NCBI GenBank assembly: GCA_900316145.1
Contig: ONBQ01000164.1
Location: forward strand, 1-33,560
Length of the DNA stretch: 33,560 nt
Direction: 5' to 3'
Source: an uncultured Eubacteriales bacterium
GTDB lineage: Bacteria; Bacillota; Clostridia; Lachnospirales; Bianqueaceae
Shown here: positions 1 through 996 of the stretch, in pieces
How the letters are laid out: each line of letters begins with the position of its first letter
Numbering within the stretch: position 1 is the first letter of the stretch
Program-made: the position numbers and the translations under genes
Notes under the pieces: model-generated
What the model was told of the DNA's origin: nothing
The model's input: the letters and a program-made list of their open reading frames with translations, nothing else
The model's database searches: none

Positions 1-535
1 AAAGAGCGATGTAGCCTGCGTTGCGTCCCATGACTTCTATGATGCTGCATTTTTCATGAGAGGCGCCTGTATCTCGAATATTATCGATGGCATGCATAGC
101 CGTGTTCACAGCGGTGTCAAAGCCGATCGTATATTCTGTGCAGGCGATGTCTCCATCGATCGTCCCAGGGATCCCGATCACGTTCAGACCTTTTTCCGCC
201 AGTCTTCTGGCTCCCTGGAAGGACCCGTCTCCACCAATGATGATCAGCGCGCTGATGTCATGTTTCCGGCAGATATCGACTGCTTTTTGCTGGTAACATT
301 CATCCTTCATCTCAGCGCAGCGTTCAGTTTCCAGCAACGTACCGCCATGCTGAAGGACATTGGAAACGCTTTCCGAGGTCATCTGCTCGATCTCTTCGCA
401 TAAAAGGCCGGCAAAGCCACGCTGGATCCCTTTTACCTGATAGCCTTTGGCCAAGGCGCGTCTTACAACGGCTCGTACGCAGGCATTCATGCCCGGAGAG
501 TCTCCTCCGCTAGTCAATACACCGATCGTAGTCAT
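1..535 (-). CDS. pfkA: ATP-dependent 6-phosphofructokinase, N-terminal 178 residues (3' end outside window)
   Basis: This enzyme phosphorylates fructose-6-phosphate to fructose-1,6-bisphosphate, the committed step of glycolysis, in the cytoplasm. The reading frame is open to the left edge, so about 178 of the usual ~320 residues are visible. Residues 8-15 form the TSGGDSPG nucleotide-binding start, GGDGS lies at 101-105, the catalytic stretch GIPGTIDGDI at 121-130 (Asp127 and Asp129), then IGFDTA and VMGRNAGYIA. The Gly residues in GGDGS and GIPGT are those of ATP-dependent rather than pyrophosphate-dependent enzymes, but the usual IDND is IDGD here. The start at 535 is set by an AAAGGAGGT ribosome binding site at about 541-548. 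Upstream lies a repeat array and then a promoter with a leader terminator. It may receive fructose-6-phosphate from the nearby NagA/NagB pathway. Confidence 0.95.
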   Translation of the reverse strand, partial: MTTIGVLTSGGDSPGMNACVRAVVRRALAKGYQVKGIQRGFAGLLCEEIEQMTSESVSNVLQHGGTLLETERCAEMKDECYQQKAVDICRKHDISALIIIGGDGSFQGARRLAEKGLNVIGIPGTIDGDIACTEYTIGFDTAVNTAMHAIDNIRDTGASHEKCSIIEVMGRNAGYIAL

Positions 536-552
536 GGTTTACCTCCTTTATT

Positions 553-579
553 GCCACGCTCACTCGTTATGCGCGTGGC
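553..579. repeat. Repeat unit 0, short form
   Basis: It keeps the 14-bp head GCCACGCTCACTCG and the tail GCGTGGC but has only a few bases between, as if the interior was deleted. It lies 18 bp upstream of the pfkA start codon. Confidence 0.7.
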
Positions 580-592
580 TCTATATATACTT

Positions 593-711
593 GCCACGCT
601 CACTCGCGCCTTAAAAGGCGCTCGTGGCGGCATTGTATGCTCTGCATATCCGCATAACCACTCGAAAGAACCACAGGCGTCCCACTCGCAAGCGGTGGTC
701 CTGTGCGTGGC
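593..711. repeat. Repeat unit 1
   Basis: A 119-bp unit. The first hairpin pairs 593-598 with 623-628 and 606-610 with 617-621. The second half, from ACCACTCGAAAGA onward, matches unit 3 up to GCGGTGGTCC and then skips to the terminal GCGTGGC, so its right stem is shorter than in unit 3. CACAGG and CCTGTG can pair instead. Confidence 0.8.
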
Positions 712-723
712 TTTATCTACTCA

Positions 724-821
724 GCCACGCTCACTCGCGCCTTACAGGCGCTCGTGGCGGCATTCGCCGCATACAGCCTCGAAAAGATTCATGCGGGTTC
801 ATTCGCAAGCGGTTGCGTGGC
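724..821. repeat. Repeat unit 2, diverged
   Basis: A 98-bp unit. The head and first hairpin are conserved (loop TTACA instead of TTAAAA). The right half is diverged (CCTCGAAAAGATTC, CATTCGCAAGCGG) but keeps the TCGCAAGCGG core and the terminal GCGTGGC. Confidence 0.75.
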
Positions 822-830
822 ATTCTACTT

Positions 831-955
831 GCCACGCTCACTCGCGCCTTAAAAGGCGCTCGTGGCGGCATTCGCCGCATAACCACTCGAAAGAACCACA
901 GGCGTCCCACTCGCAAGCGGTGGTCCGCTTGTGGTCTTTCGAGTGGTTGCGTGGC
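831..955. repeat. Repeat unit 3, most complete
   Basis: A 125-bp unit and the best formed copy. Positions 882-899 pair with 931-947 in a nearly perfect stem with one bulge, enclosing CCCACTCGCAAGCGGTGG. The outer GCCACGC (831-837) and GCGTGGC (949-955) close the whole unit. The outer stem and the first inner hairpin share bases, so they are alternative folds. Confidence 0.8.
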
Positions 956-960
956 TCATT

Positions 961-996
961 TTTTTCAAAAAAAATACCGGTTGTTTCTGCAACCGG
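961..996 (-). terminator. Intrinsic terminator upstream of pfkA repeats
   Basis: On the minus strand CCGGTTG-CAGAAA-CAACCGG (996 to 977) is followed by TATTTTTTTT. It sits about 80-110 nt downstream of a promoter at 1081-1109 and 430 nt before pfkA. It could end a short RNA or act as a leader attenuator. Confidence 0.75.

Follow-up and report, generated by a model that had tools for sequence, protein, structure and literature searches.

The window, by which we mean the whole 33,560-nucleotide stretch of DNA analysed here, carries a phosphofructokinase gene (pfkA; PF00365 match) on its minus strand, and directly upstream of it, on the same strand and 17 bp from the start codon, lies an array of palindromic units. 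What is this array, and does it serve pfkA? The earlier note had offered a mobile palindrome family, a binding array or a structured RNA in the pfkA leader. Of these the mobile family is the best supported, on account of copies at other loci, covariation in the stems, and sites that are occupied in one genome and empty in others.

Four units at 553-955, with lengths of 27, 119, 98 and 125 bp as previously described, each end in GCGTGGC. The head GCCACGCTCACTCG occurs in four exact copies in the window (at 553, 593, 724 and 831), compared to a chance expectation of 0.29 matches with 2 mismatches tolerated. The parts of the array are listed below, with bit scores from two covariance models: R1, built from seven units, and R2, one of whose 31 training sequences is a member of the Rfam family Clostridiales-1 (RF01699).

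956..964, minus strand: AAAAAATGA, the window form of the 5' flank abutting the outer stem (consensus AGCAATGA), read from the sequence.
831..955, minus strand: unit 4, 125 bp, the most complete cloverleaf (R1 115.7 bits, R2 100.3 bits; fold z -10.2).
949..955, minus strand: unit 4 outer stem, 5' strand, GCCACGC (fold; compensatory change in relatives).
881..948, minus strand: unit 4 arm 1, a long hairpin with interior mismatches around CGC-TTGC (fold; opposite-strand self-match 881-948).
865..878, minus strand: unit 4 arm 2, the short hairpin GCGGCGAATGCCGC (repeated 14-mer; helix pairing).
839..864, minus strand: unit 4 arm 3, CAC-GA-GCGCC...GGCGC-GA-GTG, with mid-stem tandem G.A mismatches (helix pairing).
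831..837, minus strand: unit 4 outer stem, 3' strand, GCGTGGC (fold).
724..821, minus strand: unit 3, 98 bp, with an arm 1 that is shorter and has diverged (R1 94.9 bits; unit alignment).
593..711, minus strand: unit 2, 119 bp, with a shorter arm 1 and with 13 nt inserted into arm 2 (R1 89 bits; unit alignment).
553..579, minus strand: unit 1, 27 bp, an outer stem with only remnants inside (sequence and fold; unit alignment).

Read on the minus (pfkA) strand, a full unit folds into a cloverleaf, in which a 7-bp outer stem (GCCACGC/GCGTGGC) encloses three arms: a long hairpin with a CUUG loop (arm 1), the hairpin GCGGC-GAAU-GCCGC (arm 2) and an arm with tandem G.A mismatches (arm 3). Folding of the full units thus bears out the nested inner hairpins proposed before. 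Unit 4 folded as DNA reaches -50.5 kcal/mol (z -10.2), and the whole minus strand folded as RNA gives z -13.6 relative to shuffled sequence. The units do not differ by clean deletions alone, as had been claimed, since alignment to unit 4 as the reference reveals the insertion in unit 2 and the divergence of arm 1 in unit 3. Unit 1, which had been described as looking like an excision product, is probably an internal-deletion derivative; no excision was seen. In the three full window units an inner copy of GCCACG can indeed compete with the outer stem for the same partner. Family-wide, a second partner is present in 6 of 119 units, the window's three included; competition is therefore not a family property and was rejected as a switch.

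The 14-mer head itself has no occurrence elsewhere in the source genome. BLAST located diverged copies on contigs C160, C52 and C125 of that genome, while matches on C10, C27, C36, C34 and C135 were dismissed as chance upon inspection. The arm-2 14-mer GCGGCGAATGCCGC recurs exactly at three further places outside the window. A search of the whole genome and its relatives with R1, such as the earlier note had proposed, gave 17 matches in the source genome, 4, 2 and 4 in its three congeners (G001, G002 and G003, respectively), and 3 across two genomes of another genus in the same family. The tandem layout with its internal deletions would also be expected from local slippage of a chance palindrome, a reading that supposes no second locus and no covariation; the copies elsewhere in the source and related genomes, which do covary, effectively rule it out. 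Partial tandem copies are found on C75, C160 and C52, which indicates that local multiplication of the kind seen in the window is common. A plasmid or phage origin was searched for, with no match.

R2 recovers copies (E <= 0.001) in 114 of 392 genomes of the order, which we infer to be Lachnospirales. Among 398 phylum-wide genomes there was no match outside the order, the five matching genomes all belonging to it. The nearest named relatives of the window phosphofructokinase come from Lachnospiraceae and Clostridiales assemblies, several of them from ruminant gut, and one of these (RUG743, L095) carries a cloverleaf copy.

Across these copies the plan is constant: a 5' foot close to AGCAATGA, a 7-bp outer stem GCCAYGC/GCRTGGC, an arm 1 of ~28 bp with a G-CUUG-C loop, a short GC hairpin with a GNNA-like loop as arm 2, and an arm 3 with tandem G.A mismatches and often a C-GNA-G loop. 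The 5' flank, near TTTGCGTAAGCAATGA, is conserved, with A at position -1 in 85 of 91 flanks, and conservation of the 3' flank fades beyond three bases. Both the fold and the stem covariation on which the earlier note had hinged its proposal were found. The fifth pair of the outer stem changes from C-G to U-A in relatives, GCCACGC becoming GCCATGC as GCGTGGC becomes GCATGGC, and genome G017 has GAAAAGC/GCTTTTC. In 31 aligned matches, double changes occur at 36 of 43 pairs, and the covariation score is 0.343, compared to 0.117 for shuffled alignments and a maximum of 0.097 for a slid structure; the alignment was fitted to the model, so that the score leans towards the structure, and the slid controls and independent folds agree with it. 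Within the same 31 units the arm-2 helix is 95.7% paired, and the arm-3 helix 96.7% paired with double changes at 8 of 8 pairs.

In the source genome, copies begin their outer stem 0-7 nt past the stop codons of asnS, purL, a CPBP protease gene, ilvB, asnB and gapA, and one follows a 5S rRNA; in G016 a copy comes after a GroEL-like C-terminus. For 94 matches, mostly from the order-wide set, the nearest upstream feature (assigned approximately, from open reading frames, with tRNAs included) shares the strand of the element in 64 cases and lies on the opposite strand in 27. The median distance of the 64 is 17 nt, many of them stopping 0-18 nt short of the outer stem, and the upstream features include many tRNA genes. 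The location and strand of the window array could be taken to point to a regulatory leader of pfkA, i.e. an attenuator or riboswitch. The occurrence of the family at many unrelated gene ends, after tRNAs and a 5S rRNA, makes a pfkA leader highly improbable; R1 finds nothing at the pfkA paralogues and orthologues examined, and Rfam gives no match. As to the gene itself, three phosphofructokinase-like genes were seen in the source genome (window 2-535, G000:C69 and G000:C81), and in the three congeners no gene matching the window copy at >61% was found.

Three further arrangements were observed among the relatives. In L331 and L325 (G095:C21 and G365:C26) two copies in opposite orientation lie 10-50 bp apart between convergent genes. 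In L064 (1218-1622; G003:C241) the terminator of a T-box leader is directly followed by a cloverleaf copy. In L280 (G045:C9), L067 (G017:C13) and L271 the outer stem runs on into the flanks, the extension in L280 reaching the 3' end of a tRNA gene that is repeated, inverted, behind the element.

Comparison of orthologous gene ends suggests that there are both old and new sites. The source genome and its three congeners all carry a copy after gapA. Orthologues of five other genes with a copy at their end were recovered from the congeners: asnS in two (three copies), purL, CPBP and asnB in three, and ilvB in one to three, some lying at contig ends. No R1 match is present at the recovered congener ends of these five, where the next gene or an ordinary terminator is found in its place; in G003, ilvB and ilvN are contiguous. 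Hence some sites are old, and at the other five a copy seems to have been gained on the source genome's lineage, loss in all congeners being less likely. The copies thus appear, from these site comparisons, to have spread recently. The earlier note had suggested looking for a target duplication or a linked transposase, and neither was found: comparison by eye of occupied with empty sites showed no evident duplication, the flanks having diverged between species, and no cloverleaf copies lie near 18 Y1_Tnp loci.

To what extent is the element an RNA? Pairing statistics give a divided answer. In the arms of the 94 matches, every kind of mismatch being scored alike, the count for arm 1 is 74 G-U pairs to 9 A-C mismatches (p ~1e-13); R2 tolerates G-U, and its best matches may therefore favour G-U in the order-wide set, an eightfold bias of this kind being judged unlikely given that hit numbers are estimated to fall slowly with score. 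The corresponding counts are 1 and 0 for arm 2 and 8 and 2 for arm 3, and 6 and 6 for the outer stem in the model alignment. Taken together, the outer stem and arms 2 and 3 have ~15 G-U per ~2100 pairs; by comparison, among 680 pairs of tRNAs at the same loci, 35 are G-U and 0 A-C. The folding energy as RNA is lower on the element strand in 92 of 94 cases. In the genus-level set the arm-1 counts are near equal (8 G-U, 10 A-C), and a DNA-only reading that had been based on equal numbers of G-U and A-C in 31 sequences was revised after the order-wide arm-1 excess. Because of that excess, arm 1 looks to have been under selection as RNA on the strand of the element. The other three helices contain hardly any G-U, unlike typical RNA. 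The suggestion of a structured RNA is therefore partly supported, by arm 1 read on the minus strand.

Arm 1 also shows signs of a terminator. Its 3' side is T-rich, 57 of 89 elements having 6 or more T within 8 nt, and the polarity favours the element strand, the 3' side being richer in T than the 5' side is in A in 28 elements and the reverse in 7 (p 0.0005). A scan for a strict terminator pattern is satisfied by 3 of 93, and arm 1 in the window has no T-tract. These features are consistent with a terminator-like role of arm 1 at many sites, not all.

Rfam has no family covering the window or the order-wide copies tested, and the literature searched gave no description of the cloverleaf family. 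The closest known relative is Clostridiales-1, a probable RNA without a cis-regulatory assignment (Weinberg et al. 2010, PMC2864571). The window has no match to RF01699 at its gathering score of 48 bits. RF01699 recognises two cloverleaf elements weakly, one at C61 (30.4 bits) and one at G002:C59 (26.0 bits), both short of that threshold. The two families share an outer stem of ~7 bp enclosing three arms, a long arm 1 with a GCUUGC loop and an arm with tandem G.A (UGAG/CGAA, ACGAG/CGAGU). They also occur in the same genomes, the source genome having 12 RF01699 matches, and partly recognise each other: L073 is matched by R1 and, at gathering level, as Clostridiales-1, and R2 in turn picks up several members of Clostridiales-1, aligned in the same register. 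In contrast, RF01699 lacks the short arm 2 and has the tandem-G.A arm in second rather than third place (long, tandem-G.A, third hairpin, compared to long, short GAAU-loop hairpin, tandem-G.A), and the window family has a conserved outer-stem sequence. Given the common plan and the different arm order, we file the cloverleaf family, on these sequence features, as a putative sister of Clostridiales-1 and not as a member.

This kinship opens the reading that the element is purely a functional structured RNA, a 3'-end domain or small RNA like Clostridiales-1, copied by ordinary recombination. The shared plan, with both models matching some elements, speaks for it, as do the one-strand G-U excess of arm 1, the lower RNA folding energy on that strand and the position kept after gapA, tRNA-Lys and rpsI-like genes. 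We nevertheless regard it as unlikely in view of the near absence of G-U from the other helices, the five empty orthologous sites and the partial copies in tandem.

REP elements are dispersed short palindromes of intergenic DNA, whose stem contains G.A mismatches and whose 5' foot is conserved. The cloverleaf resembles REP/BIME elements in all these respects, and differs in being branched, in its length of 100-150 bp and in that no flanking RAYT gene was found. With MITEs (e.g. Correia-type) it shares being short, non-coding and dispersed, a terminal inverted repeat and insertion polymorphism; it differs in that its terminal repeat measures only ~7 bp and encloses three conserved inner hairpins, in showing no evident target duplication, and in a strong bias in gene-end position and orientation. 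A 5' foot, tandem G.A mismatches and GNA loops are features that resemble single-stranded-DNA substrates. This likeness keeps in play a REP-like element moved as folded single-stranded DNA by a Y1 transposase (RAYT or IS200/IS605-type) acting in trans, for which the conserved foot lies beside a hairpin, Y1_Tnp matches exist in 16 of 19 genomes of the family, the source genome included, and the compared sites show no evident duplication. However, none of the 18 Y1_Tnp neighbourhoods holds a cloverleaf or Clostridiales-1 copy, and copy-free genomes also have Y1_Tnp matches; as a full account we regard it as improbable. Separately, a protein of ~671 aa with an N-terminal Y1_Tnp (RAYT-like) domain is encoded in L233 (2041-4056; G000:C187), G001:C40 and G003:C138, its gene adjoining a tRNA gene in these three genomes of the genus; it may be a domesticated transposase.

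The explanation we consider probable as a whole is that of a dispersed cloverleaf repeat of transcription-unit ends, with arm 1 as terminator. The family, its fold, its dispersal and the empty sites are observed directly. Copies spread between loci within the genus and are retained chiefly where transcription units end, oriented as the upstream gene. At these places we infer that arm 1 serves as the intrinsic terminator of the unit before it, on the strand of the element. More tentatively, the other three helices (the outer stem, arm 2 and arm 3), lying beyond the arm-1 T-tract, may matter at the DNA level, possibly as a folded single strand mobilised by an enzyme acting in trans. The window array is a local tandem cluster that has multiplied and decayed; it has pfkA on one side and, on the other, a small transcription unit that possesses a terminator of its own. 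The ilvB copy counts against this explanation: it interrupts what in G003 is a contiguous operon, and strong termination there would do harm. A bolder version, which we put forward tentatively as possible and no stronger, is a large mobile-terminator family absent from Rfam and kin to Clostridiales-1, which would spread as folded single-stranded DNA and settle behind stop codons and stable-RNA genes, arm 1 taking over termination and the other arms serving mobility.

These results offer a new view of Clostridiales-1, an unexplained Rfam entry: elements of the same plan are multi-copy per genome, and its putative cloverleaf sister family has copies at species-specific sites. If this is confirmed, a major bacterial order would have a gene-end element that is portable. 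Pairs of occupied and empty sites are already available for questions of transcription and movement.

The small transcription unit preceding the array, on the minus strand, has a promoter at 1109-1081 and a terminator at 997-976. It would encode a candidate small RNA of ~115 nt (window 1109-968, minus strand; promoter TTGACA-17-TAATAT) with three hairpins, the middle one bearing the C-rich loop AUCCCCGUU, a CACCUCG stretch and an eight-T terminator. Rfam gave no match to it. The unit recurs with its own promoter in G017:C13 (L067), where no same-strand gene lies close behind it and a cloverleaf copy again follows directly.
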